Positions 15,957 to 58,034 of a stretch of DNA of 64,000 nucleotides are shown here, piece after piece. Source of the stretch: Sorangium cellulosum So0157-2. Lineage in GTDB: Bacteria; Myxococcota_A; Polyangia; Polyangiales; Polyangiaceae. Below the pieces are notes generated by a model, which searched no databases, had not been told where the DNA came from, and saw nothing but the letters and a program-made list of their open reading frames with translations. A program made the position numbers and the translations under genes. Where the stretch lies: assembly GCF_000418325.1 (NCBI RefSeq), contig NC_021658.1, positions 558,001-622,000 of the forward strand, given 5' to 3'. The stretch's first letter is position 1. Each line of letters opens with the position of its first letter.

Positions 15957-16169
15957 GGCCGCGGTTGATACCCGAAGCCGAGGGCGCGGTGAACCGCCCA
16001 TGCCGACGGCCCGCCCGCTGGCCGTCCCCGCAGCAGAAGCACGCGAAAGCTCCGCCCGCGCTTCCCGACCCGCGGGGGCGAGGAACCTTGAAACCGCGGC
16101 GGCCGCCCGGCTATCTTCGCCCGGCCCGTGAACGGACCGGACCGATCTCGCGAGGTCCGCGGAGAGACG

Positions 16170-39218: not shown

Positions 39219-39961
39219 GGCAGGCCCCGCATGGCGTCGGAGCGCGCCACGAGGTCGGGGCCGAAGGCGCGGCCGTCGGGGTTGAGCATCGTGAAATGGG
39301 TGCCGACGAGGAACGGCTCGTCCCAGTCCTCGCGCTTCTGCGCGAAGCCGTAGCGCTGGAGGTGGAACACGTTGGCGATCGCGAGGAGCCCCGCGTCGCG
39401 CACCGCCTCCACGACCCACGCGTCGCCGTCGGCCTCGGTCTTGCGCAGCCGGACGTTGAGGACGAGCTGGCGATCGCCGCCGAGCGCGGCGAGCCGCGCG
39501 TGAATGGCGCGCGCGAGGGGGAGGAGGCCGCTGTCGTGCTCGAGGAGGTGGTGGTTGATCGAGAGCTTGAGGGTGGTGGGCTCGCCGAGCTTCTGGAGCC
39601 AGGCGTCGAGCGCTGCCGGATCGCGCGGGATCTCGACGCCGTTGGTGACGACGACGACGCGCGCGCAGCGGGGCTCGGCGCGGGCGAGGCGCACCATCTC
39701 GTCGAAGTGCGGGTGGATGGTGGGCTCGCCGCCCTCGAGCTGCACCTCGAAGGGGCCCTCGGGTGGGAAGCTTGCGCGGTAGCGGTCGAGGGCGAGGAAG
39801 GTCCGGCCGCGGGGCGACGAGCAGGTGCAGCACCACGGGCAGGCGCGGTTGCAGTGGTTCGTGGTGGCGACGTAGAGGCGGTGCGGGCGCTCCGCCGTGG
39901 GGCGGTCGAGCGGGAGCGCGCCGGTGAGCGTGGCGTTCTGGGGTCTCGTCGCGGTCGGCAT
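39215..39961 (-). CDS. Radical SAM protein (first of pair, short)
   Basis: This 248-aa protein starts at the ATG at 39961, which follows a GGAGG site. The frame is open upstream to 40075, but that stretch looks non-coding. The cluster motif is Cys37-x3-Cys41-x2-Cys44 (CNRACPWC), with extra Cys45 and Cys47 right behind it. The GGEPTIHP motif lies near residue 77 and VVVTNGVEIP near 101. The protein ends soon after the partial barrel, so it is short for a stand-alone enzyme and may work as a partner of the following radical SAM protein. Its start lies 64 bp after the stop of the last cas gene on the same strand. Confidence 0.84.
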   Translation of the reverse strand: MPTATRPQNATLTGALPLDRPTAERPHRLYVATTNHCNRACPWCCTCSSPRGRTFLALDRYRASFPPEGPFEVQLEGGEPTIHPHFDEMVRLARAEPRCARVVVVTNGVEIPRDPAALDAWLQKLGEPTTLKLSINHHLLEHDSGLLPLARAIHARLAALGGDRQLVLNVRLRKTEADGDAWVVEAVRDAGLLAIANVFHLQRYGFAQKREDWDEPFLVGTHFTMLNPDGRAFGPDLVARSDAMRGLP

Positions 39962-40025: not shown

Positions 40026-40988
40026 TCAGCCAGCCCGGGCCGGGCGTGCCATGCGCGCCGGGGCGAAGCTCCCATAGCCGCCCTGATCGCTCCGGCGGAT
40101 CGCAGACTCGAACACGATGGCGATGCCGCGGGCGCGCAGGACGCCCGGATCCACCTCGAAGACCTCCGACGACGTCAGGACGGAGCCGATGACGGGGCGT
40201 GAGAGCGGCACCGTCCAGATCGGCCATCGGAATGTGCCTGTCTTCCACTCGCCGCTGCACCCGGTCGTCACGATCCGGTCGCCCACGGGCGCGACCCGGA
40301 TGAACGGCAGGCCCCGGAACGCGAGCCAGTCCGCGCCGGGCACGCCGAGCTTCTTGTCCTTCGAGGGATCGCTCGCGCGCAGCGCATAGTCGCGCGCCGA
40401 GGTGTTGTCCCACTGGAGCACCGGGAGCGGTCGCTCGTAGCGCCACGGCCCAAACAGCGCCTCTTCCAGGTCCTCGACGCGCACACCCTGGATGAGCTCG
40501 CTCACCATCGTGAGGAACTCCTGCTGGCCTGCGGTGAAATGCAGCGCGGTCGGCTTCGTGTTGCCGTTGTTGTCCACCGCCACATCCGTCGCAAACGCTG
40601 CGGCGAAGGCGAGGCTCCGCCGCAGCTCGTCGCTTACCCCACGGCTCGGGCAATCGCCTAGCAGGCGGCTCAGGTAATCCACGAAGAAGCCAGGAGGAGG
40701 CTTGAGATCGTGCGCCTCGGCCCCGTCGCCATCCTTGCGATAATGCAACCACTCGATCGCCGGCTCTCCGCGGAAGCTCGCCAGATCCTGGACGAGCACA
40801 TCGAGCAACGCGCCGCGATCCGGGCCGCCCATGATCGCCGGCTGGTACGTGCCGCCGGCGCGCCAGACCAGTCTGGGCTCCGGCGTCCCATCTTTCGTCC
40901 GGTCGGCGAGCGCGTTGAGCACCCCGAGCGCCGCCAGGAACGCCAGCGGATTCTTGCCATCAAGCCCGGTCAGCAAGAGCTCGGTCAT
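40026..40988 (-). CDS. csb3: Type I-G effector subunit, Csb3/Cas8-like
   Basis: This 320-aa protein is encoded immediately after cas3, with a 4-bp overlap. It starts MTELLLTGLDGKNPLAFLAALGVLNAL, a G-(x)-NPLxFLAALGVL opening shared by Csx17/Csb3-type large subunits of type I-G. It has AAFATDVAVDNNGNTKPTALHF and a C-terminal stretch IWTVPLSRPVIGSVLTS. At 320 aa it is much shorter than Csx17 (about 700 aa), so the Csb3-type subunit seen in the Geobacter-like branch is the best fit. It would recognise the PAM or stabilise the Cascade-like complex. The gene name is my best family match, not a certain one. Confidence 0.68.
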   Translation of the reverse strand: MTELLLTGLDGKNPLAFLAALGVLNALADRTKDGTPEPRLVWRAGGTYQPAIMGGPDRGALLDVLVQDLASFRGEPAIEWLHYRKDGDGAEAHDLKPPPGFFVDYLSRLLGDCPSRGVSDELRRSLAFAAAFATDVAVDNNGNTKPTALHFTAGQQEFLTMVSELIQGVRVEDLEEALFGPWRYERPLPVLQWDNTSARDYALRASDPSKDKKLGVPGADWLAFRGLPFIRVAPVGDRIVTTGCSGEWKTGTFRWPIWTVPLSRPVIGSVLTSSEVFEVDPGVLRARGIAIVFESAIRRSDQGGYGSFAPARMARPARAG

Positions 40989-43984
40989 CTGTCGTCCCTC
41001 GCCCCGATGTCGCCGCGCTGCTCTTCCTCGCTCCGCCGGTGATCCGCGAGCCGCAGGAGCGCTTCGAGCCACGCCAGGCCGAACCAGCCGTAGCGCTGCA
41101 CGAGCCGCCAGAACCGCTCGGCGATGCCCGCGTCGAGCCGCGCGAGGCCGTGATCGCTCGATACGCGCACGGGCGTGCCCTCCACCTCCAGGGCGAGCTC
41201 GACGGGCTCGTCATCCGCGACGACGGGCGCGAACGGCCGGCACCAGCCGTGATGCGATGCCGTGAGATGCAGCACCAGATCGCGATCGACATCCTTGTCG
41301 AACAGCCGTTCGCAGCCCTGAAGGAGCGCAACGGACGAGAGCTCGTGTCGGGCGCCCCGCGGGTATCCAGATCGCTTGATCGCGTGGGCCCGCGCCGCGC
41401 GATCCGCAGCGACGAGCGCGCTCTTGGCGAGCGGCTCGGGCGCCACCGCCGCCCGGAGCTCGCTGCCCCCGTGGAGCATCCGCTGGAACCGCGGATCGAC
41501 CTTCCCGGCGTCGTGCCAGCGCGCCGCCAGCTCGACCGCGCGCGCGACCTCGGGCGGGAGCCCGCACTGCTCGGCGAACCGCCTGGCCCAGGAAGCGACG
41601 CCTCCCAGGTGCTCGCGCAGCGTCACCTCGACGCCCGTGTACGACGCGCCGTCGTCCTCCGTCGTCACGTCGCCCGCCCCCTCGACGCGCGTCCGGAAGC
41701 GGCCGACGAGCGCGAAATAGCCCTCCTCGACCCGCGGCGCCCCGTCCTCGCCCACCAGCTCCATGCCGTCGAGCCTCACGAGCGCGGGGCGCCTCCTGCC
41801 CTTCACCGCGAGCGCCGTGATCACCTGGCCAAGCCACGATGTCGCGGCCGTTGCCGCGCTCATCTCCGAGAGCCACGCGTCGATCTCCGCGCGATCCTGG
41901 GCATCCGACCGCTCGTCCACGACCGGGACGGGGATCTTTGGCAGTGCAGCATCCGTGACGCCAGCATGCTGCCGCATGACGTCCGGGTGCAGCCGCAGCG
42001 TCGGGCGGCCTGTCTGCTGCCAGCGGGCGCGATCGCCCAGGTCCGAGACAGGCACCTGCGACGAAGGATCCCAGGTGCCGCCGGCGAGGCCTCCGTACGT
42101 GCCAGGGACGACGAGCGTGCTGCCTGGGCAGAGCTCGCCGGGCTCGATCACCCGGCTCTCGTCGCCCTTCCAGAGCAGCGCGAGGCGCCCGTCGTGGCGA
42201 TCTCCTTCGTCATCGTCCATCGCGCGCCCCTCGATGTCGGCGAGCTCGGGGGCCGCGCCGCCCTGGAGCCACGCCCGCACCGCATGGATCGGCAGCGAGA
42301 TTGCCTCGAGCCCGACCGGCGCGCACGCCTCCACGCGCTTCAACAACGCCTCGCGCGCCTCCTCGTCTCGCTTCGCCTGCGCGAGCAGCGTTCCGGTCAC
42401 GTCGGCGCGCCAGACGACTTGCACCTCGGGCGCATGCTCCTGGTCGGTCCCATGGAGCCACAGGGAGACATCAGGATCGACCTCCGGGCTCGGCCGCGTC
42501 TGCACCCACGCGTCGAGATGCGCGGGGAGCATCACCGGTGCGCGCGATGTCTGCGACAGCATTGCCTCGAGCCTTGCCCCCTCGGGCAGCGCCGCCGCCA
42601 TCTCCTGGATGCCGAAATCGCGCGTTGCCTCGCCGAGCCACGTCCACGTCGCGGCGAGCGCATTGCCATAGACCGGATCGACGTAATCCTTGGCGAGCGC
42701 GTCCGAGCGCACCAGCACCACGCCGCGCGCGTCCTCGATCGCGCCGATCCGGTTCAGGCGGCCGAAGCGCTGCCGGAGCGCGTCGATCGAGGCGCACTCG
42801 GTCACGATCGCGTCGAGATCAAAGTCGGCGCCCGCCTCGATGCATTGGGTCGCGACGATGACCACCGGGTCCGCGGCTGCGTCGCGCGCCCGGCCCGTGC
42901 GCACGAGCGGGCCGAGCCTTTCGTCGAGATCGTCGCGATCGAGCGGGCGCATGCGGCCCGTGACGAGGATGGGGTCGACGCTGCCGCCGGACCGCTTCCG
43001 GATCGCCTCGGCGGCCTCGCGCGCCGTGGCGACGCGGTTGACGATGACGCCGACGGCGCGCCCCGGCGCCACGAAGCGCAGGGCGTGCTCGGCGCATGCC
43101 TCGGCGAGGGCTGCTCGCCGCGCGCCCTCCCCGCCGCTCACCTTCACTTCGGCGAGCGCGGCTGGCTTGTTCGCCTGGAGCCGCCGCGCGAGCCGCTCGT
43201 CGCGGCGATCGTCGTCGTTCAGTCCGAACACGCGCCCATCGTCGGACGCAGCGGACGTCACGCCGGCGGTTCCCGCCGTGCTCCCCGGCGTGGCCGACAT
43301 CTCCACGACCTGCCATCGGTCGGGCAGCTTGCGGCTCGTCCACGTGCGATATCGGCACAGCGAGCGCAGCGTCTCGCGGAACGGCTGCGACAGGTGCACC
43401 TCGTCGAGCAGCAGGAGCGTATCGTTGCCGAGCAGCCCCGCGTGGATGGGGCGCATGGCGTCGCTCACGCCGTAGCCGCGGAAGAGCAGCCGCGAGCCGA
43501 CCTGATCCACGGTCGAGACGGCCACGAGCGGCTGATCAGGCCTCCGCGCCCACGCATCGTCGCGCGGCATGCCGCCGCGGAGCTGCGCCAGCGCGAGCGG
43601 CGCCTCGTTCCCCCGCAGGCCAGCGAGCGCCCGGAGCCGATCGGCCACGGCGCGGAGGACTCCGTTCCCCGCGCCCGTCAGCGTCTCGGCGATCTTCTTC
43701 GCGCGCTCGAACGCCTGATCGACGACCGTCCGCCGGTCCACGACCATCACGATGCGCCGGGGGGCCGTGCGCTGAGCCGGCGGCGCTGCGGCGTCGAGCG
43801 CGAGGTGGAAGAGGGCAACGTCGATCGCCGCCGTCTTGCCCGCGCCCGTGGGCAGATCGAGCAGCGTCGGCCAGCCCCCCTCGCGCGCCACGTCGGCGAG
43901 CAGCCTCGCCTGCCACGGGAACGGCGCCGCGCCGTGGATCGCCTCGAAGTACGCGGCGAAGTCGTCGGGCGAGAGCTCAGCCAT
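40985..43984 (-). CDS. cas3: Cas3 helicase-nuclease, type I-G layout (HD domain at C-terminus)
   Basis: Cas3 unwinds and cuts target DNA after Cascade binding. The 999-aa protein begins with the helicase: the Q-motif-like FPWQARLL, Walker A LPTGAGKT (44-51), the DEVH box (194-197), VVEMSATPG, and later the helicase C motif VIVATQCIEAGADFDLD with the QRFGRLNR box. The HD phosphohydrolase is at the C-terminus: RWHDAGKVDPRFQRML (His and Asp near residue 824) and TASHHGW near 918. A C-terminal HD is the arrangement of type I-G (formerly I-U) Cas3, the reverse of most type I Cas3 proteins. It overlaps csb2 by 8 bp. Confidence 0.95.
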   Translation of the reverse strand: MAELSPDDFAAYFEAIHGAAPFPWQARLLADVAREGGWPTLLDLPTGAGKTAAIDVALFHLALDAAAPPAQRTAPRRIVMVVDRRTVVDQAFERAKKIAETLTGAGNGVLRAVADRLRALAGLRGNEAPLALAQLRGGMPRDDAWARRPDQPLVAVSTVDQVGSRLLFRGYGVSDAMRPIHAGLLGNDTLLLLDEVHLSQPFRETLRSLCRYRTWTSRKLPDRWQVVEMSATPGSTAGTAGVTSAASDDGRVFGLNDDDRRDERLARRLQANKPAALAEVKVSGGEGARRAALAEACAEHALRFVAPGRAVGVIVNRVATAREAAEAIRKRSGGSVDPILVTGRMRPLDRDDLDERLGPLVRTGRARDAAADPVVIVATQCIEAGADFDLDAIVTECASIDALRQRFGRLNRIGAIEDARGVVLVRSDALAKDYVDPVYGNALAATWTWLGEATRDFGIQEMAAALPEGARLEAMLSQTSRAPVMLPAHLDAWVQTRPSPEVDPDVSLWLHGTDQEHAPEVQVVWRADVTGTLLAQAKRDEEAREALLKRVEACAPVGLEAISLPIHAVRAWLQGGAAPELADIEGRAMDDDEGDRHDGRLALLWKGDESRVIEPGELCPGSTLVVPGTYGGLAGGTWDPSSQVPVSDLGDRARWQQTGRPTLRLHPDVMRQHAGVTDAALPKIPVPVVDERSDAQDRAEIDAWLSEMSAATAATSWLGQVITALAVKGRRRPALVRLDGMELVGEDGAPRVEEGYFALVGRFRTRVEGAGDVTTEDDGASYTGVEVTLREHLGGVASWARRFAEQCGLPPEVARAVELAARWHDAGKVDPRFQRMLHGGSELRAAVAPEPLAKSALVAADRAARAHAIKRSGYPRGARHELSSVALLQGCERLFDKDVDRDLVLHLTASHHGWCRPFAPVVADDEPVELALEVEGTPVRVSSDHGLARLDAGIAERFWRLVQRYGWFGLAWLEALLRLADHRRSEEEQRGDIGARDDR

Positions 43985-45668
43985 TGGCCCTCAGCGGCCG
44001 AAAGAGGCCGAGGCCGAAGTAACGCCCGGCGCCGAGCAGGATGGGTCCCCTCACCGGCGCATCGAACGTGAGCGTCGCGTGCACCAGCACGCGCTGCACG
44101 GGAGGCTTGCCCGCATGGAACGGCGGGAAGCGTCGGGCCTTGTCGGCGCCCGCGAGGGGCGCTGCAGGCATGACCGTCACGCGCGATGGCCGCGGCAGTC
44201 CGATCCGCTCGCACGCGACGGCGAGCGTCGCCTCGGCTTCGGCGTAGGCGGCGGCCTCCTTCTGCGGGTCGCGCGCGCCGAGATCGCCCGGGTTGCGATC
44301 GAGCGCGACCGGCGTGGCGCTGGCCCAGGATGCGGCCTCGGCGCACCAGGTCGCGGGCCTCAGCGTCGTCGCGGACGTCTGCTCTTCCAGCCGCTCGAGC
44401 ATGAGCTCGCCGGCCTTGCCGAGGTGGACAGGGAGCCTCGGCGGCTCCTCGTCGCCGCCGCGCGCCTGCTGCTCCCACGCGTCCAGCGCGCGGTAGATGG
44501 CGAGCCGCTCGTCGCGCGTCACGTCCCGCGGCAGGATCAACGCGACGCCGAGGAGCGCGCCGTCGGCATGCTCGCTGCCGACGAACGGCAGCGGGACGTA
44601 GGCGAGGTGGGGGCGCTCGCTCGGTCCGCCCGACGCGCGGTGCCCCGAGAGGATCTCCGGCGCGCCGGGACCGTAGGCCGCCATCATGGCCTTGCGCACC
44701 GTCCTGGCGACGTCGACGGCCCGGATCGAGGGGAGGCGCGGGCCGGCGACCCGGCGCAGGACGATCCACCCATCGCCGAAAAGGGGCGCCGGCGCGCTCG
44801 CCTCGCTGGCGGCGCGAGGCCGCACGTAGCGCTGGAACGATGCCGGCATGACCCGTCCGGGCGTGTCGGCCTGCAGCTCGAACGCGGCGCCGAGGGCCGC
44901 GAGCTGACCCGGGCCGACGACGCGGAGCACCGCCTCATCGCCGGCGCGCCCCGGGCCCGTATCGTCCGGGATCCAGGTCGCTTCGGGGCGGTCGTCGCGC
45001 ACGCGGGCGGTCACGAGCGACGAGGAGTGTCCGAGCCGCGTCACGCGCGCGGCGAGCGCATCGAGCGCCGCGCGCTGCTCGGGCGTAGGGGTCGCGCTCG
45101 GCCACGCGAAGACGATGCGCGGCATGGCGGGTTCCATCTCGGCGGGCGCGCTCGACGGGAAGGTGCGCGGCTGCCGCGTCCTTCGCTCGGGCAGGATCGA
45201 CGTCGCCTTGACCGGCCCGTCTTTCCCCTCCTTCCCGGCCGGGACCGGTGCGATCGCCTTGCGCACGGCCTCCAGGAAGCGCGCCTCGGCCTTGACCAGC
45301 TTCTTCTCGGCGGCGGCGAGCGGCTTTCCGCCCGCGGGCCGTGCGGCGTCGAGCTCGGCGCGCGCCTCGCGCACGGTGAGCGCCTCGTCGTCGAGCGAGC
45401 CGACCACGCTCGTGTCGTTCACCGGCACGAACACGGTCACGACCTCCCGCGCGGCGGCTTCGGGCGCCGTGATCTCGGGCGGGCCTTGCTGCTCCAGCCA
45501 CTCCAGCGCGGCGCGCTCGTCGGCTGACGGATCGAGCGTGTCGAAGTACGCCGCGACGAGGGCCGAGAACAGCCGTGCCGGGTGCGGAGGCCACTCGGCC
45601 CGATCGCGGTCGTCGACGGCGGTCGCCACGTAGCGGCCGGTCAGCAGGGCGACCTCGATCGCGAGCAT
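43977..45668 (-). CDS. csb2: Csb2 (Cas5-Cas6 fusion of type I-G)
   Basis: This 563-aa protein of the GSU0054/Csb2 family is the signature of type I-G. The N-terminal Cas5-like half begins MLAIEVALLTGRYVATAVDDR with EWPPHPARLFSALVAAY. The C-terminal Cas6-like half ends with the glycine-rich loop LLGAGRYFGLGLFRPL and has HATLTFDAPVRGPIL. It would process crRNA at the repeat stem and cap the complex. The start ATG (45666-45668) overlaps the csb1 stop by 1 bp. Confidence 0.93.
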   Translation of the reverse strand: MLAIEVALLTGRYVATAVDDRDRAEWPPHPARLFSALVAAYFDTLDPSADERAALEWLEQQGPPEITAPEAAAREVVTVFVPVNDTSVVGSLDDEALTVREARAELDAARPAGGKPLAAAEKKLVKAEARFLEAVRKAIAPVPAGKEGKDGPVKATSILPERRTRQPRTFPSSAPAEMEPAMPRIVFAWPSATPTPEQRAALDALAARVTRLGHSSSLVTARVRDDRPEATWIPDDTGPGRAGDEAVLRVVGPGQLAALGAAFELQADTPGRVMPASFQRYVRPRAASEASAPAPLFGDGWIVLRRVAGPRLPSIRAVDVARTVRKAMMAAYGPGAPEILSGHRASGGPSERPHLAYVPLPFVGSEHADGALLGVALILPRDVTRDERLAIYRALDAWEQQARGGDEEPPRLPVHLGKAGELMLERLEEQTSATTLRPATWCAEAASWASATPVALDRNPGDLGARDPQKEAAAYAEAEATLAVACERIGLPRPSRVTVMPAAPLAGADKARRFPPFHAGKPPVQRVLVHATLTFDAPVRGPILLGAGRYFGLGLFRPLRANG

Positions 45669-46945
45669 CAGCCCTCGTCCTCGGCCTCGCCGCTCGCCGC
45701 CAGCTCACGGCTCTTCCGGATGAGGCCCGCGAGCTTCGGCGCCGGCGTGAGCGTGATGGGCTTCGCATCCCAGCCGAGACCGAGCTTCCGCGCCTTCTGC
45801 TCGGCGCCCTTGAGCAGGGCCGCGGCCTCGGCCCGCGACAGCGAGAAGCGCTCCGGCTCGCCGCCATCGCGGCCGACGAGCTCGAAGACGAGGGGCTCTT
45901 TCGCGACGAGGGTCGAGCGCGAACGAAGATCGTAGCCCTGGTCGCGCTGGTAGACGACAGCGGCGAGGCCCAGCGCGGCGAGCGCGGTGCGCGCCGCGGT
46001 CTCGGCCGCGTCGCGTTGCTCGGTGGGGAGGCGCTCGCCCGAGCAGGCGGTCTGGAAGCGCAGGCGGCGGAGGGCGCCGAGCGACAGCACGGTGGTCTGC
46101 ACGGCGTGGCTCATCGTGACCCCGCCGGCCGCGGCGTCGATGCTCGGCGGGATGTTGCCGTGGTTGATGGCCGACGGAGAGCCCTTTTTGCCGTCGCCGC
46201 CGCTGCGTGAGAACTCGACGGGCTTGCCGCCTTTGGCCAGCTCGGCCTCCTTCGGGTCGACGGTCCAGTCCTGGCTGGGATCCTTGTGCTTGAACACCGG
46301 GCCTGCCTTCGTCTGGATGCCGGCGGGGTCGAGGCGACTCGCCGTCTTCACGCCGGTCGCGATGTCGATGCCGACGATCTCGGAGACCAGGCAGCGCTGG
46401 AACTTGGCGCCGAGGCCGCCCTTCGGGCCGGTGCTGTCCCACACGCCGAAGATCAGGGCTGTCGGGCAGTACTTGAACATGGCCGTCGCGTGGGTCGGGC
46501 GCGCGTCGGTCACCTCCTTGCCGACGGCCGTGTGGCGGAACGGGGTGCCGCCCAGCACGCTGTCGCGGAGGAGCGCGTCGGCGATGCGATGCGGAGCCTG
46601 GAGCGCCGTGATCTGCTCGAGGTCCGCGAGCCCCGCCTCGTTCGAGAAGTCGACCTGCACGATGGGGAAGGGGAGCTCCCCGCGCCGGAATCCGTCGAGC
46701 AGCGCCTCCTCGAAGCGGTTTGCCTGGGAAGCGACCGAGTCGAGGAGCACTGTCGTGACCTCGCGCCCGTCGATGCGTCGCTGCTCCGTCGCGTACTTCG
46801 TGGTCGCGTTGCGCTCCTTCACGTACGTCGGCGGGAAGACCTTGTCGCCGGGGCCGCCTGCGGGCTCAAGGCGCGTGATGGCGCGGATCGCGGCGGCGCC
46901 GCCGGCGACGGCGTTCGCGAGGGTATCGAGGTCGAGAGAGCGCAT
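45668..46945 (-). CDS. csb1: Csb1 (Cas7 backbone of type I-G)
   Basis: This 425-aa protein of the GSU0053/Csb1 family forms the helical backbone that holds crRNA. Family marks are VLLDSVASQANRFEEALL near residue 65, HRIADALLRDSVLGGTPFRH, HATAMFKYCPTALIFGVWDS near 152 and a C-terminal FSLSRAEAAALL. It is the first gene of the effector operon csb1-csb2-cas3-csb3. The ATG at 46945 is preceded by GGAGGA at 3 nt. The promoter must lie in the 545-bp divergent space shared with cas4-cas1. Confidence 0.93.
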   Translation of the reverse strand: MRSLDLDTLANAVAGGAAAIRAITRLEPAGGPGDKVFPPTYVKERNATTKYATEQRRIDGREVTTVLLDSVASQANRFEEALLDGFRRGELPFPIVQVDFSNEAGLADLEQITALQAPHRIADALLRDSVLGGTPFRHTAVGKEVTDARPTHATAMFKYCPTALIFGVWDSTGPKGGLGAKFQRCLVSEIVGIDIATGVKTASRLDPAGIQTKAGPVFKHKDPSQDWTVDPKEAELAKGGKPVEFSRSGGDGKKGSPSAINHGNIPPSIDAAAGGVTMSHAVQTTVLSLGALRRLRFQTACSGERLPTEQRDAAETAARTALAALGLAAVVYQRDQGYDLRSRSTLVAKEPLVFELVGRDGGEPERFSLSRAEAAALLKGAEQKARKLGLGWDAKPITLTPAPKLAGLIRKSRELAASGEAEDEG

Positions 46946-47490
46946 CGGTCCTCCGTGGGCGGAACGTGGGCGGAAAACGGTAGCAAGCTCCAGGCTGCGC
47001 GATCCGGGGCGAGCTCATGCGGCTCGGGGCCGGCGTCGCGCGGCCGACGCGACGGTGTTTACCATCGCAGAGGAGGGGGTGGATGGGAAGAGGGCGACGC
47101 CTGACTACGCAGCATTGCGTATACCCTGGCGAGTTTACCTGACGACGTGACGACGCAGCCGAGCTCGGCTTGGCGGGCGCAGAGCCGGGTTGCTCGGGCT
47201 GTGGTGCCGGAGCTGAACGGGGGAGGCACCGGGACGAGCCAAGGAGGGTCCGGGAGAGGTGGAGTCGCCTCTCCAGGTGGACCCGTCGCGAGCGAGGCCT
47301 CCGCGCCGTCGCACGAAGAGCGCTGCTTGCAGCGCTCTGTGGCCGGCGGGAGGTCGCGCAGCAGAACGCCGCGGCTCTTGCTCGGCATTGCGGTGAGCTA
47401 TTCAGAATTCCCGCATCAAATTCGTGGATCCATCTGCTTGACTCTGCCTGACACGAAGGCGTCTGATGCCGTCCAAAGGGGGTGCCACGA
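46946..47490. other. Divergent cas intergenic region with perfect palindrome
   Basis: This 545-bp space separates the effector operon (minus) from the adaptation genes (plus) and should hold both promoters. It contains a palindrome with 10-bp arms at 47317-47338 (AGAGCGCTGC, TT, GCAGCGCTCT) and a comparatively AT-rich segment at 47395-47460 just before cas4-cas1. No gene with family motifs is seen in it. Confidence 0.55.
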
Positions 47491-49494
47491 ATGGCGCGAG
47501 CTCCTGAGCGCGTGACGGACGAATCGAGCGAGCCGCTGATCCGGGCGAAGCCGCTCCCGCGGAGGTTGCCAGTCGCGGGGACGCCGCCGGAGCTGGTGCC
47601 GGCGCGGATGATCAACGAGGTGCTCTACTGCGAGCGCCTGCTCTACCTGGAGTGGGCGCAAGGCGAGTTCGAGGACAACGTCTTCACGGTGGAGGGCCGG
47701 AGCGTGCACCGGCGCGCGGACGTCGCGGGTGGCGAGCTGCCGCCGCGGCCGGCGGGCGCCGCGCAGGGCGCCGGAGCGGAGCAGGCCGAGGTGGCAGCTT
47801 CCCCGGCGCAGCCGCGGCGCGCGCCGGGAAGGCGGGCCGACAGGGACGAGGAGGGCGACGAGCCGGCGCCGTACGAGGCGCGCAGCGTGTGGCTCTCGTC
47901 GGAGCGGCTCGGCATCACGGCGAAGATCGACGTGGTGGAGGGCGACGCGTCGGGGCGCCTCCTGCCGATCGAGTACAAGCGCGGCCACGCGCCGGACGTG
48001 CCCGGAGGGGCTTATCTGCCGGAGCGCGCGCAGCTCTGCGCGCACGTGCTGCTCCTGCGCGAGCACGGGTATTCGTGCGACGAGGCGGCCGTCTACTTCG
48101 CGGCGTCGCGCCGGCGCGTCTCGATCGCGATCGACGACGCGCTGATCGCCGCGACGCACGCGGCCGCGGCGCGCGCGCGGGAGGTGACGCGGGCCGCGGC
48201 CATCCCCCCGCCGCTCGTCGACAGCCCGAAGTGCAACGGCTGCTCGCTCGTCGGGATCTGCTTGCCCGACGAGACCAACCTGCTGCGGCGCCTCGACGGC
48301 GAGGATCTCGACGCGGCCGCGGCGTCCGAGGGCCCGCCGCTCGAGGCCGGCGGATCCGCGGAGCTGGAGGGCCCGCTGGAGGTGGATCCGTGGGGGATCG
48401 CCGGCGCGGCGGCTGTGGACGAGCGGGTGGTGGAGGACAGTGACGACGAGCGCGGGGTGGAGCTCAGGCGGCTTCATCCGGCGCGGGACGACAAGGTCCC
48501 TGTGTACGTGCAGGAGCAGGGGGCGCGCATCGGGCTCGCGGGGGAGCGGCTCGTGATCCACACCCGGACCGGGGGGCAGACGGAGGCGCGCCTGTCGAAC
48601 ACGTCGCAGGTGGCCCTGCTCGGCAACGTGCAGATCTCGACGCAGGCGATGCGGGCGCTGCTCGAGCGCGGGATACCCCTGCTCCTCATGACGTACGGCG
48701 GCTACTACCTGGGCCGCGCGACGGGGCTCGAGTCGAGGAACGTGGAGCTCCGCGTCGCGCAGCACCGGGCGGCGGCGGACGAGGCGTTCTGCCTGTCGTT
48801 CGCGCGCGGGGTGGTGGTGTCGAAGATCAAGAACGCGAGGACGATGCTCCGGCGCAACCACGCGTCGCCCGAGGCGGCGGTGCTGTCGGAGCTCGATCAG
48901 CTCGCGCGCAAGGCCGCGGAGGCGCCTTCGCTGCCGTCGCTGCTCGGGATCGAGGGGACCGCGGCCCGGGTGTACTTCGGGGCGTTCGCCGGCATGTTGA
49001 AGGCCGCGGGCGAGGTGAGGGGCGAGTTCGATCTGGAAGGGAGGAACCGGCGGCCGCCGCGGGATCCGGTGAACGCGCTGCTGTCGCTCGCGTACGCGCT
49101 GCTCGCGAAGGAGCTCGCGACGACGCTGGGCACGGTCGGGCTGGATCCGCTGCTCGGGTTCTATCACCAGCCGCGCTTCGGCCGGCCGGCGCTGGCGCTG
49201 GATCTCATGGAGGAGTTCCGGCCGATCGTGGCGGACTCGGTGGTCGTGGCGGCCATCAACAACGGGGTGGTCGCGCCGGACGATTTCCAGCGCTTCGGGG
49301 ACGCGGTGGCGCTGCGGCCGGCCGGGCGCAAGAAGTTCCTCTTGGCGTACGAGCGGCGGATGGACCAGCTCGTGACGCACCCGGTGTTCGGATACCGGAT
49401 CAGCTACCGCCGGGTGCTGGAGGTGCAGGCGCGGCTGCTCGCGCGGGTGCTGCTCGGCGAGGTCGGGGCGTATCCGTCCTTCCGGACGCGGTGA
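47491..49494 (+). CDS. cas4-cas1: Cas4-Cas1 fusion protein
   Basis: The 667-aa fusion is typical of type I-G. The N-terminal Cas4 part (about 35-270) is a RecB-like nuclease with an Fe-S cluster: Cys47 plus Cys248, Cys251 and Cys257 as ligands, Asp147 in AKIDVVEG and Glu161-x-Lys163 in PIEYKRG as the nuclease core. A Pro/Ala-rich insert sits at 80-125. The Cas1 integrase (about 330-667) shows LLGNVQISTQAMRALLERG, the Glu in LLGIEGTAARVYF, the His in FYHQ and the Asp/Glu in LALDLMEEFRP. Cas4 trims prespacers to the right PAM and length and Cas1 integrates them. The ATG at 47491 follows AAAGGGGG. Confidence 0.95.
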   Translation: MARAPERVTDESSEPLIRAKPLPRRLPVAGTPPELVPARMINEVLYCERLLYLEWAQGEFEDNVFTVEGRSVHRRADVAGGELPPRPAGAAQGAGAEQAEVAASPAQPRRAPGRRADRDEEGDEPAPYEARSVWLSSERLGITAKIDVVEGDASGRLLPIEYKRGHAPDVPGGAYLPERAQLCAHVLLLREHGYSCDEAAVYFAASRRRVSIAIDDALIAATHAAAARAREVTRAAAIPPPLVDSPKCNGCSLVGICLPDETNLLRRLDGEDLDAAAASEGPPLEAGGSAELEGPLEVDPWGIAGAAAVDERVVEDSDDERGVELRRLHPARDDKVPVYVQEQGARIGLAGERLVIHTRTGGQTEARLSNTSQVALLGNVQISTQAMRALLERGIPLLLMTYGGYYLGRATGLESRNVELRVAQHRAAADEAFCLSFARGVVVSKIKNARTMLRRNHASPEAAVLSELDQLARKAAEAPSLPSLLGIEGTAARVYFGAFAGMLKAAGEVRGEFDLEGRNRRPPRDPVNALLSLAYALLAKELATTLGTVGLDPLLGFYHQPRFGRPALALDLMEEFRPIVADSVVVAAINNGVVAPDDFQRFGDAVALRPAGRKKFLLAYERRMDQLVTHPVFGYRISYRRVLEVQARLLARVLLGEVGAYPSFRTR

Positions 49495-49554
49495 GGGAGG
49501 GGAGGCGGCGAGGAGAGCGAGCGAGAGGGCGAGAGAGGCGGAGAGGAGGCCGGC

Positions 49555-49845
49555 GTGAGGCAGAGCTACATCGTGAGCTACGACGTCTGCGATCCGAAGC
49601 GGCTGCGCAAGATCTTCAAGGCGATGCGGGGGTACGGCGACTGGCTGCAGCTGTCGGTGTGGCAGTGCGAGCTGAGCCGGAGGGAGCTCGTGGAGCTGCG
49701 GCGGGATCTCGGGCAGATCATCGATGCGAAGGTGGACCAGGTGCTGATCATCGACATCGGTCCGGCGAACGGGCGCGGGCTCAGCGCCATCGCGTCGCTC
49801 GGCCGGGCGTACGTCCCGTCGGAGCGGGTGGCGGTGGTGGTGTGA
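49555..49845 (+). CDS. cas2: Cas2
   Basis: This 96-aa Cas2 starts at a GTG (49555) behind GAGAGGAGG. It has the ferredoxin-like opening SYIVSYDVCDPKRLRKIFK with the conserved Asp10, then GYGDWLQLSVWQCELS and the C-terminal VDQVLIIDIGP strand. Cas2 is the dimeric core that Cas1 dimers flank during spacer integration. It lies 60 bp after cas4-cas1, completing the adaptation module. Confidence 0.95.
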   Translation: MRQSYIVSYDVCDPKRLRKIFKAMRGYGDWLQLSVWQCELSRRELVELRRDLGQIIDAKVDQVLIIDIGPANGRGLSAIASLGRAYVPSERVAVVV

Positions 49846-49885
49846 GGCGCTGAGCCGGCGGGGAGGCGTCGGCGGCGAGCTGCCT

Positions 49886-51413: not shown

Positions 51414-51428
51414 GCATCGTGGTCGTTG

Positions 51429-51702
51429 GCGAGCGCGCTCGCGGGGGGACCAGGTCGCGTCGTGGTCGTTGGCGAGCGCGCTCGCGGGGGATCGGGACGC
51501 GCTGGCGATCGCGGGCGAGCGCGCTCGCGGGGGGACCAGGTCGCGTCGTGGTCGTTGGCGAGCGCGCTCGCGGGGGATCGGGACGCGCTGGCGATCGCGG
51601 GCGAGCGCGCTCGCGGGGGGACCAGGTCGCGTCGTGGTCGTTGGCGAGCGCGCTCGCGGGGGACCGGGACGCGCTGGCGATCACGGGCGAGCCCCGCCTC
51701 GC
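51429..51702. repeat. 43-bp palindromic tandem repeat (seven units)
   Basis: The 14-bp palindrome GCGAGCGCGCTCGC recurs at 51429, 51472, 51515, 51558, 51601 and 51644, exactly 43 bp apart each time, with a seventh degenerate copy at 51687. The 29-bp intervals are of two kinds. One contains GGGACCAGGTCGCGTCGTGG and recurs at least three times; the other contains GGATCGGGACGCGCTGGCGA. They mostly alternate, giving an 86-bp higher-order unit. The array lies between the nuclease-like gene and the CRISPR leader. Regular palindromes at four helical turns (43 bp) suit a multi-site protein-binding array or a template-slippage product. It is not a CRISPR array, because the intervals are themselves repeated. 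Confidence 0.9.
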
Positions 51703-52406
51703 AGGGTGCCTCGGGAAGGCGGCGGGGTCCGGCCCGGGGGTCGCCGCCGTCCCGGAGCAGGTGAGATGGACCACGCCGGCCTTCAAGACGCAAGTGCCCC
51801 ACGCAGGCATCGGCGGAGGGGGCGGGCAGCCCCACGGGCCCCGGGTGCAAAAGGAGAAGGAAGAAGGCGCGCCGGTTTCCAGCGTGTGCGCCCTTTCGTG
51901 AGGGACGGACCCAACGGGTCCGGGAATCGCGGCGATCGACGGCGGTGCGCGGCGTGGAAGAAGGTAGCAGAGGCGTGTTGGGAGCTGCTGGGCGCGACGG
52001 AGATCCGCGGCCGTTGAACCGTTGCTCCGTAGCGTGGACGGTGGGCGAGCGACGCCGAGAAGCTCGTCAGCGCGAGCGGCGCAGCGGCCGCACCCTGGGC
52101 AGGGCGGCTGGACGAGCGGACGAGGTGGGGCTGGAGAGGTCCCGATAGGGGCGAGGACGGAAGGGCTGGGCACGGCATGGCGGGGGTGTGGTAGAAGAGG
52201 GGGGAGGCGCCGGCTGCGAGCGGTGGAGTGACGCGAAAATCCCGGGAGGCGCTCGCAACGCCGGTAGGTGTTTGAAATGACGATGGTTTTTGAGAGCGCG
52301 GGGGGCCTCCGGAGGGCCACCCGGGGCCGGCGAAGGGGGGTCGAAGGGGAACCTCTCGCAAACCGGCTTGCAAGTACGCGAAATGTCAGGTACGTCTGGG
52401 AGGCCT
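51703..52406 (+). promoter_or_regulatory. CRISPR leader and gene-free region upstream of the array
   Basis: This 704-bp region shows no gene. It ends at the first repeat, on the side where the leader is expected because the repeats end ATTGAAGC rightward and the degenerate, cut repeat is at the right end. The last 170 bp include AT-richer patches (TGTTTGAAATGACGATGG near 52270, and GCAAGTACGCGAAATGTCAG near 52370) typical of leaders in GC-rich genomes. A small hairpin CGGACCC-AAC-GGGTCCG lies near 51906. The array promoter probably lies within 52240-52400. Confidence 0.55.
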
Positions 52407-55400
52407 CTCTCCGCCGCTGAAAGGCGGCGGCCCCATTGAAGCCCCTCGGGGTCGAGCCTGCCCCAGTGGCTCAGCACGCTCTCCGCCGCTGAAAGGCGGC
52501 GGCCCCATTGAAGCATGGCTAGATGACTCGGTCGTTTTCATGGTCCTGCCCTCTCCGCCGCTGAAAGGCGGCGGCCCCATTGAAGCATGGCTAGATGACT
52601 CGGTCGTTTTCATGGTCCTGCCCTCTCCGCCGCTGAAAGGCGGCGGCCCCATTGAAGCATGGCTAGATGACTCGGTCGTTTTCATGGTCCTGCCCTCTCC
52701 GCCGCTGAAAGGCGGCGGCCCCATTGAAGCGCCAGCACGCCGCCCTGCCCATGACGCCCGAAGCCGTGGCTCTCCGCCGCTGAAAGGCGGCGGCCCCATT
52801 GAAGCGAGCCTGACGACCAGGGCAACGGCGCCGGCTTCGTGCTCTCCGCCGCTGAAAGGCGGCGGCCCCATTGAAGCGCCGTGGCGCTCGCGCTTGCGGC
52901 GGCGCCGAACGAGCTCTCCGCCGCTGAAAGGCGGCGGCCCCATTGAAGCTCGTCGATTCGCGGTCCAGGTCACGCCCGAGTTCCGGCCTCTCCGCCGCTG
53001 AAAGGCGGCGGCCCCATTGAAGCAAGTGCACGTATACTCTTCGCTGACTGGCTCACCCACTCTCCGCCGCTGAAAGGCGGCGGCCCCATTGAAGCACGAG
53101 GTACGCGATCGACCGGTTCGCACAGCGCGTGTGCTCTCCGCCGCTGAAAGGCGGCGGCCCCATTGAAGCGAGCCTGACGACCAGGGCAACGGCGCCGGCT
53201 TCGTGCTCTCCGCCGCTGAAAGGCGGCGGCCCCATTGAAGCGAGCCTGACGACCAGGGCAACGGCGCCGGCTTCGTGCTCTCCGCCGCTGAAAGGCGGCG
53301 GCCCCATTGAAGCCAGATCGAGCCATCCGACCAGGAGGCGGGGGGATCCGATCTCTCCGCCGCTGAAAGGCGGCGGCCCCATTGAAGCTAGACCTGGCGA
53401 ACGTTGCCAGTGGCCTCGACGATCTTCTCTCCGCCGCTGAAAGGCGGCGGCCCCATTGAAGCTCGTCGATTCGCGGTCCAGGTCACGCCCGAGTTCCGGC
53501 CTCTCCGCCGCTGAAAGGCGGCGGCCCCATTGAAGCACGAGGTACGCGATCGACCGGTTCGCACAGCGCGTGTGCTCTCCGCCGCTGAAAGGCGGCGGCC
53601 CCATTGAAGCAAGTCTCCGGTGTTAAACATCCGCTCCTCTGCCTCGCTCTCCGCCGCTGAAAGGCGGCGGCCCCATTGAAGCGACCACCGCGAGCACGCT
53701 TCCGCCGCCCGGAATCACCTCTCCGCCGCTGAAAGGTGGCGGCCCCATTGAAGCCGCTGTTCCTTGAGCCACCGCTGGACGAGGGCGATCCCGATCTCCG
53801 CCGCTGAAAGGCGGCGGCCCCATTGAAGCCGCTCTGCGAACAGCACGGTCGGAGAGGTGTGTTTGAATCTCCGCCGCTGAAAGGCGGCGGCCCCATTGAA
53901 GCCGTACGTCAGGACGTGGGCGGAGGCTCTCTTGCCCGACTCTCCGCCGCTGAAAGGCGGCGGCCCCATTGAAGCATCAGCTCGCGCCGATGCGCAACGA
54001 ACAGCGACCGACTCTCCGCCGCTGAAAGGCGGCGGCCCCATTGAAGCACCTCGACGAACGCGTCGCGCGCGGACTCGCTGCGCAGCTCTCCGCCGCTGAA
54101 AGGCGGCGGCCCCATTGAAGCACCTCGACGAACGCGTCGCGCGCGGACTCGCTGCGCAGCTCTCCGCCGCTGAAAGGCGGCGGCCCCATTGAAGCACCTC
54201 GACGAACGCGTCGCGCGCGGACTCGCTGCGCAGCTCTCCGCCGCTGAAAGGCGGCGGCCCCATTGAAGCGTCTTGCAGATGACCTCCCACGTGTCTGCGA
54301 GGTGGCTCTCCGCCGCTGAAAGGCGGCGGCCCCATTGAAGCGTCTTGCAGATGACCTCCCACGTGTCTGCGAGGTGGCTCTCCGCCGCTGAAAGGCGGCG
54401 GCCCCATTGAAGCCTCTAAGGTCGTGTTCGATGCCGGAGCCTTGCTGGCTCTCCGCCGCTGAAAGGCGGCGGCCCCATTGAAGCGATGGCATGCGTAGGA
54501 GGGACGAAAAATCCCTGCATCCTCTCCGCCGCTGAAAGGCGGCGGCCCCATTGAAGCTTGAGATCGTCGACGTCGAGTGTAGGGAGCCAATAGCTCTCCG
54601 CCGCTGAAAGGCGGCGGCCCCATTGAAGCTTGAGATCGTCGACGTCGAGTGTAGGGAGCCAATAGCTCTCCGCCGCTGAAAGGCGGCGGCCCCATTGAAG
54701 CGTAGGACGCCCGGATTACGCGGGCGAAGCCTTCGGACTCTCCGCCGCTGAAAGGCGGCGGCCCCATTGAAGCCGGTACCTGGGCCCCAAGTTCGTGGAG
54801 CGCGTCCTCGACTCTCCGCCGCTGAAAGGCGGCGGCCCCATTGAAGCCGGTACCTGGGCCCCAAGTTCGTGGAGCGCGTCCTCGACTCTCCGCCGCTGAA
54901 AGGCGGCGGCCCCATTGAAGCGAGCCTGACGACCAGGGCAACGGCGCCGGCTTCGTGCTCTCCGCCGCTGAAAGGCGGCGGCCCCATTGAAGCGAGCCTG
55001 ACGACCAGGGCAACGGCGCCGGCTTCGTGCTCTCCGCCGCTGAAAGGCGGCGGCCCCATTGAAGCACGAGGTACGCGATCGACCGGTTCGCACAGCGCGT
55101 GTGCTCTCCGCCGCTGAAAGGCGGCGGCCCCATTGAAGCCGGAGAGGGGAGCGCTGCGTAATGGCCCTGCCGCGCGCTCTCCGCCGCTGAAAGGCGGCGG
55201 CCCCATTGAAGCTGCAAGTTCGGGGAGCTCCCCGTGCGCCCTGTTTCCTTGAGCTCTCCGCCGCTGAAAGGCGGCGGCCCCATTGAAGCTGCAAGTTCGG
55301 GGAGCTCCCCGTGCGCCCTGTTTCCTTGAGCTCTCCGCCGCTGAAAGGCGGCGGCCCCATTGAAGCACCTCGACGAACGCGTCGCGCGCGGACTCGCTGC

Positions 55401-56593
55401 GCAGCTCTCCGCCGGTGAAAGGCGGCGGCCCCATTGAAGCACCTCGACGAACGCGTCGCGCGCGGACTCGCTGCGCAGCTCTCCGCCGCTGAAAGGCGGC
55501 GGCCCCATTGAAGCGTCTTGCAGATGACCTCCCACGTGTCTGCGAGGTGGCTCTCCGCCGCTGAAAGGCGGCGGCCCCATTGAAGCTTCGATCTGCCGGA
55601 GAGCGTGTACGACGACGCGGTCTCTCCGCCGCTGAAAGGCGGCGGCCCCATTGAAGCTTCGATCTGCCGGAGAGCGTGTACGACGACGCGGTCTCTCCGC
55701 CGCTGAAAGGCGGCGGCCCCATTGAAGCATACGGTCCGGGTCTTCAAGCTCTACGTTGTAGCAGGGCCTCTCCGCCGCTGAAAGGCGGCGGCCCCATTGA
55801 AGCTACGCCGACCACGTGCGAGGGTTCCGGCCCGCCTTCTACTCTCCGCCGCTGAAAGGCGGCGGCCCCATTGAAGCTACGCCGACCACGTGCGAGGGTT
55901 CCGGCCCGCCTTCTACTCTCCGCCGCTGAAAGGCGGCGGCCCCATTGAAGCTACGCCGACCACGTGCGAGGGTTCCGGCCCGCCTTCTACTCTCCGCCGC
56001 TGAAAGGCGGCGGCCCCATTGAAGCGCCAGCACGCCGCCCTGCCCATGACGCCCGAAGCCGTGGCTCTCCGCCGCTGAAAGGCGGCGGCCCCATTGAAGC
56101 TTGAGATCGTCGACGTCGAGTGTAGGGAGCCAATAGCTCTCCGCCGCTGAAAGGCGGCGGCCCCATTGAAGCATCGCGCAGGCCGCGACGGGCGGCGCCG
56201 CCACGGCCCTCTCCGCCGCTGAAAGGCGGCGGCCCCATTGAAGCATGCTCATCTCCATCCTCCCGCGCGCCTCGGCGCTCTCTCTCCGCCGCTGAAAGGC
56301 GGCGGCCCCATTGAAGCATGCTCATCTCCATCCTCCCGCGCGCCTCGGCGCTCTCTCTCCGCCGCTGAAAGGCGGCGGCCCCATTGAAGCTCCTATGAGG
56401 GAAGCGGCAATCGGGCCCGCTACGTGATAGCTCTCCGCCGCTGAAAGGCGGCGGCCCCATTGAAGCCGGTACCTGGGCCCCAAGTTCGTGGAGCGCGTCC
56501 TCGACTCTCCGCCGCTGAAAGGCGGCGGCCCCATTGAAGCCGTTGACATGTCGGTCGCGGCCGGCGTCGCCCAGCGATCTCTCCGCCGCTGAA
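52407..56593 (+). CRISPR. Type I-G CRISPR array, 57 full repeats plus one truncated
   Basis: Thirty-six-base repeats begin CTCTCCGCCG and end CCCCATTGAAGC. They contain a 7-bp stem CCGCCGC/GCGGCGG with a TGAAAG loop. Repeat starts include 52407, 52479, 52551, 52623 and 52695, continuing to 56505; the last (56579) is cut after 15 bases by an IS. Spacers are 35-41 bp. By my reading only 32 of the 57 spacers are distinct. Repeat variants occur at 53719 (C to T), 53794 and 53867 (first base A), and 55405 (C to G). The 3' GAAGC end and the leader on the left set the orientation as plus. The associated cas genes are the type I-G set upstream. Several spacers read through as good coding sequence, consistent with phage gene origin. 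Confidence 0.98.
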
Positions 56594-58034
56594 CGTACAT
56601 TTCGCGCCTACGGGGCGCGAGTGGGCCGAGGGCAATGCGCGAGCGGTGTTCGGTTGAAGAGATGCGGTACCGATTACGATCGGGCGCGTCCAGAGCCTCA
56701 CGAAGACACACGTCCCCCTCACCCCCACGATGATTTCGGCTGGTTCCGGGCTCAATTCAGCCAGCGGGCGAGCTGCGAGCGCTCCGGCACGTGCAGCTTC
56801 GTGCCCCGAGCCGAGCGGGCCAACCGTCCCGGCACGAGGATCAGCGCGCGGCGCAGCCACGGCGTTCGCCAGCTCGCCAGGTGCGGAACATGGTCCAGCA
56901 CATACCGGCGCATCAGGTTGGCGGTCAGCAGCTTCAGCAGCAGCGCGGCATGATTGGCGTTGAAGCTGTGGCTCGGCACGCGACCGCATCCCCACCCGTG
57001 CTTGAGATCGCCGATGAGCGGCTCGATGCCCGCGCGCAGGTCATACCGCGCCGCGACGTCTTCCGGCGCTTCGACCGGCTCGTTGGTCAAGAAGACCTGC
57101 ACCGTGTAGTCGAGGCCCTCCCAGAGGTAGATCTGCTTGCCGTTCTCCCGGTCGCGTGTGCGTACGGCAATCACGCGGACACTATCCGGCCAATCGCTGC
57201 ACCGGAACGGGACCTCGGCCACCTGCCGCCGGGGACGACCGTCGGCATCCCAGTCGATGGTACGCCATCCGGTAGCGTGTGCGACCATGCCCACCAGATC
57301 GGGGCTCATCCGCGCCTTGGTCAGGAAAAAGCATCCCTTCATGGCAACGGCGTGCATCAAGGCGCTGCAATCCCCCGCGCCATCGATCCGCACGTAGATG
57401 ACCGCGCTCGGCGCTGCGGCGCGCGCCCGGTCGATGCACTCCTCGACGAAAGGCACATCGGCTTCGCCAAAGCTCGTGTCGCCAGGTCGCAGCTTGGCTC
57501 CGACGATCGCGTCGACCTCGGCGACCCGCGCCAGGATCGGATGATAGCTCGGCCGGCCGTGATAGCGCGGGTTCGGGCCCGGCAGCGCCCCCTCCTGCAT
57601 CCCGAAGAGCGGCTCCACGGTCGTGTCGACGTCGATGTGTACGAACCGGTGCTTTCGGCGCGCAACGAGGGCGAGCCCATGGTCGACGAGCATGGCCGGG
57701 AAAAGCTGCGGCTCAGGGCCGCGTCGACGCCGAGCTCGCGGATGAAGGCGCCGAACGGGGCAAGCCCTGCGACCCCCGTCAGGTTCGTCTCCGTGGGTTT
57801 GACGTGGAGTGTGGAAGGGTCTGGCCGCCGGATGCGCTTCTGGTGCCGCCCGTCGCCTTTCCTCTTGAACCCAAGCTGGCGCCGGCGCACCTTGGAGGTG
57901 CTCGGCGTGCGTCTTCGTTTCGTCATAGCAACCGGGACCGGTCGCCACGCCGAGCCTTTCTTTCAAGGCATTCCGTTTACGCCGCCAGCTTTCTCACCCC
58001 TCGGAGCGGCTTCGTAGGCGCGAAATCCACGTTT
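56592..58034 (-). mobile_element. IS1380-like insertion sequence
   Basis: Terminal inverted repeats of about 21 bp bound the element: left AACGTACATTTCGCGCCTACG at 56592-56612, right the near-complement at 58013-58034 (CGTAGGCGCGAAATCC followed by ACGTTT). Between them lies one transposase coding region on the minus strand. The left end sits inside the final CRISPR repeat. The right end abuts a DUF3368 toxin fragment. No matching target-site duplication is visible across the two flanks, so the surrounding DNA was probably rearranged after insertion. Confidence 0.83.
56752..57926 (-). pseudogene. IS1380-family transposase, frame shifted
   Basis: The N-terminus is read from ATG 57926 (MTKRRRTPSTSKVRRRQLGF, then AGLAPFGAFIRELGVDAAL). 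Close to 57710 the continuing sequence moves to another frame, where the body continues as FPAMLVDHGLALVARRKHRF, then HIDVDTTVEPLFGMQEGALPG, NPRYHGRPSYHPILA, RIDGAGDCSALMHAV and GIEPLIGDLKHGWG. The Asp in DVDTTVE, the Asp in RIDGAGD and the Glu in GIEPLIGDLK match the DDE pattern of IS1380 transposases. The shift is equivalent to -1 at a CTTTTCC run, so it is either a mutation or programmed frameshifting. It is listed as a pseudogene because no canonical slippery heptamer is seen. Confidence 0.75.

Follow-up and report, generated by a model that had tools for sequence, protein, structure and literature searches.

A type I-G CRISPR array of Sorangium cellulosum So0157-2 with many duplicated spacers, some of them shared with two further arrays

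Duplication and rearrangement of spacers by misalignment of repeats or by recombination between them is an established phenomenon (PMC11472070, PMC8047081), and both tandem and dispersed spacer copies have been described in Mycobacterium tuberculosis (PMC7708916), in Bifidobacterium animalis subsp. lactis (PMC12915315) and in a review (PMC8047081). The SpacerPlacer survey (PMC11472070) and the same review depict single-unit and block duplications, together with deletions between identical repeats, in which repeat boundaries are kept, and the array of Sorangium cellulosum So0157-2 described here follows that pattern. The amounts differ: the survey counted 805 of 24,090 spacers (3.3%) as duplication candidates (PMC11472070), as against extra copies in 25 of the 57 units of the So0157-2 array. 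The CRISPR locus of M. tuberculosis likewise contains adjacent single-unit, multi-unit and distant copies, with later loss within a copy, and single units make up 11 of its 16 tandem duplications; these 16 tandem events and four distant ones are spread over 198 isolates, whereas 12 adjacent runs plus distant copies are found in one So0157-2 array, which, unlike the M. tuberculosis locus, also shares spacers with other arrays (PMC7708916). In B. animalis subsp. lactis repeated spacers are again adjacent or dispersed, and in its type I-E genomes with several arrays they are sometimes common to more than one array, as in So0157-2; the systems of that organism are mainly type I-E, with one type I-G system, whereas the array considered here is type I-G (PMC12915315). 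For the myxobacteria, a 2024 CRISPR survey named I-G as the feature subtype of the suborder Sorangiineae, found arrays with the same repeat to be scattered, and removed duplicate spacers in one of its comparisons; the 36-bp repeat of the present array, ending in TTGAAGC, is the G-type of that survey (PMC11237760). No description of the array was found in that survey, in the literature on duplicated spacers or in that on the So0157-2 genome, as far as the excerpts of these sources extend. The array is an extreme example of a known process, and what is unusual about it is the amount of duplication and the exact sharing of spacers with two arrays whose leaders differ by 20%.

The window, the 64,000-nucleotide stretch of DNA that was analysed, covers positions 558,001–622,000 of the 14,782,125-bp single-contig genome, and its features are collected in Table 1. 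The 57 full repeats, at 52407–56540, enclose 56 spacers (31 distinct), and a terminal 38-nt spacer (56541–56578), unlike all others in the array, brings the totals to the 57 spacers and 32 different sequences that an earlier note on this DNA had reported; the recount leaves 25 extra copies, and every spacer start quoted in that note was recovered. With each distinct spacer given a number, the order is 1 2 2 2 3 4 5 6 7 8 4 4 9 10 6 8 11 12 13 14 15 16 17 17 17 18 18 19 20 21 21 22 23 23 4 4 8 24 25 25 17 17 18 26 26 27 28 28 28 3 21 29 30 30 31 23, followed by the terminal spacer. Thirteen distinct spacers are present in two to five copies each and occupy 38 of the 57 units. The copies of any one spacer are identical throughout the array, and whole repeat-spacer units have been duplicated with their repeat boundaries intact, as is expected of repeat-mediated duplication. 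Four of the 57 full repeats are off the consensus, by one base each; the only three-spacer run to recur inside the array is 17-17-18; and the longest exact repeat, whether within this array or between arrays, is 187 bp.

Table 1. Features of the window that bear on the CRISPR array (window positions).
Feature	Positions	Strand	Remarks
Cas8g	40026..41072	-	PADLOC Cas8g
cas3g helicase-nuclease	40985..43984	-	PADLOC Cas3g
csb2 / Cas5-Cas6 (GSU0054 family)	43977..45668	-	Pfam above cut-off; PADLOC Cas56g
csb1 / Cas7g (GSU0053 family)	45668..46945	-	Pfam above cut-off; PADLOC Cas7g
Cas4-Cas1 fusion	47482..49494	+	both Pfam domains in one 670-aa ORF
Cas2	frame 49495..49845 (stop-to-stop)	+	PF09827 above cut-off at 49567-49761; PADLOC Cas2g
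Leader	52150..52406	+	79.5 and 79.7% identical to the other two arrays' leaders over 259 and 256 alignment columns
CRISPR array	52407..56593	+	type I-G style 36-bp repeat CTCTCCGCCGCTGAAAGGCGGCGGCCCCATTGAAGC; 57 full and 1 truncated repeat; 57 spacers, 32 distinct
Array part A (spacer positions 1-34)	52443..54885	+	read as first pass through ancestral order; boundary picked post hoc
Variant-repeat block	53683..53939	+	GGTGG variant follows spacer 12; repeats after 13 and 14 start with A; 12-variant-13 block also in both other arrays
Array part B (spacer positions 35-56)	54922..56504	+	read as second pass; its 9 spacers common with the 9.17-Mb array are co-ordered
Truncated terminal repeat	56579..56593	+	15/36 bp; adjoins transposase element
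Transposase ORF (DDE_Tnp_1_4, PF13701)	56752..57966	-	flanked by 14-bp inverted repeat at 56599 and 58013

Related arrays were parsed in 41 loci linked to this one by their Cas4-Cas1 fusion and in six stretches of other Sorangium genomes, with an array finder that required at least four repeats, a repeat of 23–48 bp and spacers of at least 18 nt; an array met twice was counted once, and the filter dropped none. This set yielded 33 arrays with 915 spacers, from 29 loci, and two extra copies. Counted in the same way, the window array has 25 extra copies in 56 spacers as against 2 in 915 (Fisher p 8e-32), a contrast that may be inflated because most of the related loci are, by title, metagenome contigs, in which duplicates may be lost. 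Strain So ceGT47 carries type I-G arrays like that of the window, with the same repeat, the same leader family and several arrays per genome; when four of its stretches were parsed separately, 158 of 160 spacers proved distinct, the exceptions being two adjacent duplicates, of which one belongs to a short array missed by the finder. In contrast to So0157-2, its arrays have no spacers in common (160 spacers, four stretches), and among five other Sorangium genomes there were no shared spacers in the parsed arrays of four and no match to the repeat in the remaining one.

Two other arrays of the So0157-2 genome carry the same repeat. The first, at 8.415 Mb (the 8.42-Mb array), has 14 spacers, 13 of them distinct, in the order 32 12 13 33 34 34 35 36 28 10 30 37 38 39; the second, at 9.17 Mb on the reverse strand, has 40 intervals (the last of 253 bp), 38 of them distinct, in the order 32 7 8 40 41 24 25 42 17 43 18 44 19 20 45-50 26 51 27 52 28 10 53 54 30 11 33 13 14 12 13 55 12 56 57 58. 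By exact sequence, the window array shares 17 spacers with the 9.17-Mb array and five with the 8.42-Mb array, and the latter two have seven in common; the terminal window spacer is absent from both. Identical spacers occur letter for letter in three arrays with leaders about 80% identical (mutually 78–80%, over 256–561 alignment columns). Since the shared spacers are free of mismatches while the leaders have drifted this far, the sharing either is far more recent than the divergence of the leaders or has been refreshed. Compared with the duplications within the window array, this sharing between arrays is the more secure of the two results. A lone near-copy of the CRISPR repeat also lies near position 2851828 of the genome, directly upstream of an ATG.

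Several features of the shared and duplicated units bear on how they were copied. A mutated repeat (GGTGG) follows spacer 12 at all four of its occurrences, across the three arrays, and the block made up of spacers 12 and 13 sits in differing contexts in the three; the repeat after spacers 13 and 14 always begins with A, although that base may instead be the spacer's. Spacer lengths in the three arrays span 35–44 nt and copies of one spacer never differ in length, the chance that two independent spacer draws agree in length being 0.21 (labels 1–55); that lengths vary and yet all copies agree is a strong argument against repeated capture of the same protospacers. Near-matches are also lacking, in that no pair of distinct spacers in the three arrays (spacers below 70 nt) lies within 12 edits. 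Taken together, the travelling mutated repeat, the constant copy length and the lack of near-matches suggest that existing repeat-spacer units were probably copied as DNA and not recaptured, such that a special adaptation machinery is not required.

The order of the shared spacers is in part conserved. When the window array is divided after spacer position 34 into parts A and B, a cut chosen after the data were seen, all nine spacers that part B shares with the 9.17-Mb array are co-ordered (permutation p 5e-5); parts A and B share seven spacers with a longest common order of six (p 0.017), and early part A, to spacer 16, has a common order of six of seven shared with the 9.17-Mb array (p 0.026). 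Concordance is not found for the whole of part A against the 9.17-Mb array (six of 11 shared, p 0.25) or for the 8.42-Mb against the 9.17-Mb array (four of seven shared, p 0.54), and no three-spacer run is common to any two of the three arrays. The concordance being only partial, the history of these arrays includes rearrangement besides loss. With the leader spacers 1 and 2 excluded, parts A and B contain 21 and 15 different spacers, seven of them common, which gives an ancestral size of about 45 spacers (21 x 15 / 7) if the two parts are random remnants of one array; the 29 spacers of the window array and 34 of the 9.17-Mb array (labels 32, 56, 57 and 58 excluded), with 17 in common, give 58, an estimate of the same order of magnitude, neither being an independent test. 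One spacer of the 9.17-Mb array, 65 nt long, is the start of 13 joined to the end of 15, and inspection by eye shows no evident repeat where the two meet; this fusion suggests that the array probably once had the order 13-14-15 that is still present in the window array. The idea that duplicates had replaced spacers private to the 9.17-Mb array (17-43-18 there and 17-17-18 in the window, compared by eye) was dropped, as private spacers lie next to almost all the shared ones in that array.

Successive copies of a spacer in the window array lie one unit apart in 15 cases, 2–4 units apart in none, and 5–45 units apart in 10. The smooth geometric fall-off of block length that has been reported for deletions, and which is not strictly defining for duplications, is not seen here. 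A single tandem birth-death process, run with geometric block means of 1, 1.2, 1.5, 2.7 and 5, matched the data in 0 of 400 runs per setting under a strict criterion; under a looser one the matches were 0, 0, 1, 0 and 0 of 1000 runs. In contrast, a model in which the whole array is duplicated once, after which blocks are deleted and single units duplicated, reproduced the data by the looser criterion in 44% (15 duplications) and 83% (20 duplications) of 1000 runs, and the match fell to 0.8% with a duplicated-block mean of 1.5 and to none with a mean of 2.7, implying that single-unit duplication must dominate if the array is real. The distance pattern, with 15 adjacent copies, none at 2–4 units and 10 at five or more, thus fits a large duplication with single-unit duplications and deletions and does not fit one smooth slippage process. 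Settings and criteria were picked after the data had been seen, so these simulations indicate which models are able to fit and do not amount to independent tests.

On this evidence we favour, with moderate confidence, a type I-G array whose content was reworked as DNA once the spacers had been acquired, by repeat-mediated copying and loss. An ancestral array of roughly 45–58 spacers would have been copied between array loci; at the window locus it may then have been lengthened by a large tandem duplication, giving rise to parts A and B, and by a smaller duplication of about six units; single units would have been doubled or tripled, and many units would have been deleted independently in each copy. 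The old end of the array is cut off beside the insertion element. The route would be homologous recombination mediated by the repeats, or replication slippage, and Cas proteins would not be needed for the copying. Recombination or slippage between repeats was among the readings offered in the earlier note; it is the best supported of them, strengthened by the inter-array sharing, by the repeat variant that accompanies its spacer and by the partial conservation of order. The note's suggestion of a special adaptation machinery has no support beyond the position of the array next to the cas genes, and its third option, mis-assembly, is a serious candidate. A wider reading, in which three paralogous arrays with leaders 20% diverged exchange units in a form of concerted evolution and constitute a partly redundant common memory, the cas-adjacent array accumulating multiple copies, is tentative and perhaps doubtful.

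Several observations fit reworking of the arrays less easily. Among them are the two comparisons of order without concordance, the absence of a three-spacer run common to any two arrays, with 17-17-18 alone recurring inside the window array, the length of the longest exact repeat (187 bp) and the lack of sharing between the So ceGT47 arrays. Adjacent doublings, moreover, number 15 in the window array, one in the 8.42-Mb array and none in the 9.17-Mb array, that is, 15 of 55 neighbouring pairs in the window array as against 0 of 39 in the 9.17-Mb array (the last pair including the 253-bp interval; Fisher p 1.4e-4). Given that the 9.17-Mb array resides in the same cell and has the same repeat, one common slippage rate does not fit, and the absence of adjacent duplicates there is uncomfortable for a purely biological account. 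Every duplication discussed here depends on an assembly of short reads: the sequencing used HiSeq 1000 and 454, gaps were closed by PCR, fosmid ends were added, and the excerpt of the genome paper contains no mention of long reads (PMC3696898). The real array might accordingly be shorter, or contain other spacers, the duplicates having arisen as contigs or PCR products were merged on the 36-bp repeat; in particular, contigs that overlap by repeat-spacer-repeat but are joined on one repeat would have exactly one unit doubled. The lack of any three-spacer run common between arrays and the near absence of duplicates in relatives also speak for such an artefact, and simulated unit doubling alone, at a chosen rate, does yield the number of adjacent copies. 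It yields no distant copies, however, and artefact walks through the shared repeat with random or local re-entry produce copies at distances of 2–4 units; none of the three settings matched the pattern in any of 1000 runs. Spacers private to the window array (2, 3, 4, 6, 21 and 23) are duplicated as well, a real common origin is required to account for the agreement in order of part B with the 9.17-Mb array and for the repeat variant that the arrays share, and the longest exact repeat would be resolvable by reads of 250–400 bp, if such reads were used; 187 bp is within 454 read length. An assembly cause for most of the duplicates is, on balance, unlikely, but it is kept as a serious candidate because joining on a single repeat would produce the adjacent doublings and the 9.17-Mb array has none.

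Two explanations that invoke the adaptation machinery fare worse than either mis-assembly or reworking at the DNA level. Recapture of the same protospacers by Cas4-Cas1-Cas2, in the window array and in parallel in the other two, would be in keeping with the single cas1 identified in the genome, which probably serves all three same-repeat arrays, and an agreement in order would be expected if infections came in the same order. As the earlier note had argued for distant identical spacers, fresh capture is nevertheless a poor explanation, since all copies share their ends and length, shifted or near-identical spacers are absent, and the mutated repeat moves with spacer 12, the 12-13 block appearing in differing contexts in three arrays; we regard it as very improbable. 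The search for sources points the same way with little force. Individual searches covered spacers 4 and 17, two of the 32 distinct spacers of the window array, and with up to three mismatches these matched, in six Sorangium genomes, only arrays of the So0157-2 genome itself, so that no outside source was found there; the exact 24-base cores of both five-copy spacers gave nothing in IMG/VR. The whole array used as a query had only weak matches among phages (five records, best E 0.4) and plasmids (12 records), the best plasmid match, at E 6e-4, covering window positions 56196–56228, where 20 of 33 bases are repeat. Spacers without an identifiable source are common, and the absence of one weighs little. 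Least probable of all, and in our judgement scarcely credible, is a machinery that would use its own arrays as the source of spacers and insert these anew. In its favour is the fact that the array richest in copies is the one beside cas4-cas1 and cas2, and beyond that position the proposal finds no support: the copies are spread along the array and not placed at the leader end, spacer 2 being the only one of the 12 adjacent runs close to it, the variant repeat has been copied too, and cas1, cas2 and cas4 match ordinary type I-G families.

If real, the array would be, to our knowledge, among the most rearranged arrays known; the order of spacers need not be a timeline, units would pass from one array to another, and a memory would change in copy number without new infection. 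It would also be a good natural case for distinguishing RecA dependence from replication slippage in array rearrangement, which a review names as an open question (PMC8047081). If it is an assembly error, it stands as a warning about spacer order taken from short-read genomes.

Genes that by sequence make up a complete type I-G cas set adjoin the window array (Table 1). csb1 and csb2 were matched by PF09617 and PF09609 above cut-off, and an alternative frame for Cas2, 49491–49853, gave no match, in contrast to the frame listed. The genome paper had listed only cas1, cas2 and cas3 (PMC3696898). At its old end (56579–58026) the array stops within a repeat, and the missing remainder of that repeat was not found beyond the transposase element, so that part of the array has probably been lost at this end. 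A tandem repeat (51428–51692) separates cas2 from the leader, with an 86-bp unit, 3.1 copies and 98% matches. Just beyond the cas genes a radical SAM protein (38142–39836, minus strand) has weak viperin-like matches, and further off a plus-strand frame of 3760 aa (16128–27410) is rich in tetratricopeptide repeats, the opposite strand there being free of stops for 4079 codons, with 3-hydroxyacyl-CoA dehydrogenase domains at its C-terminal end.
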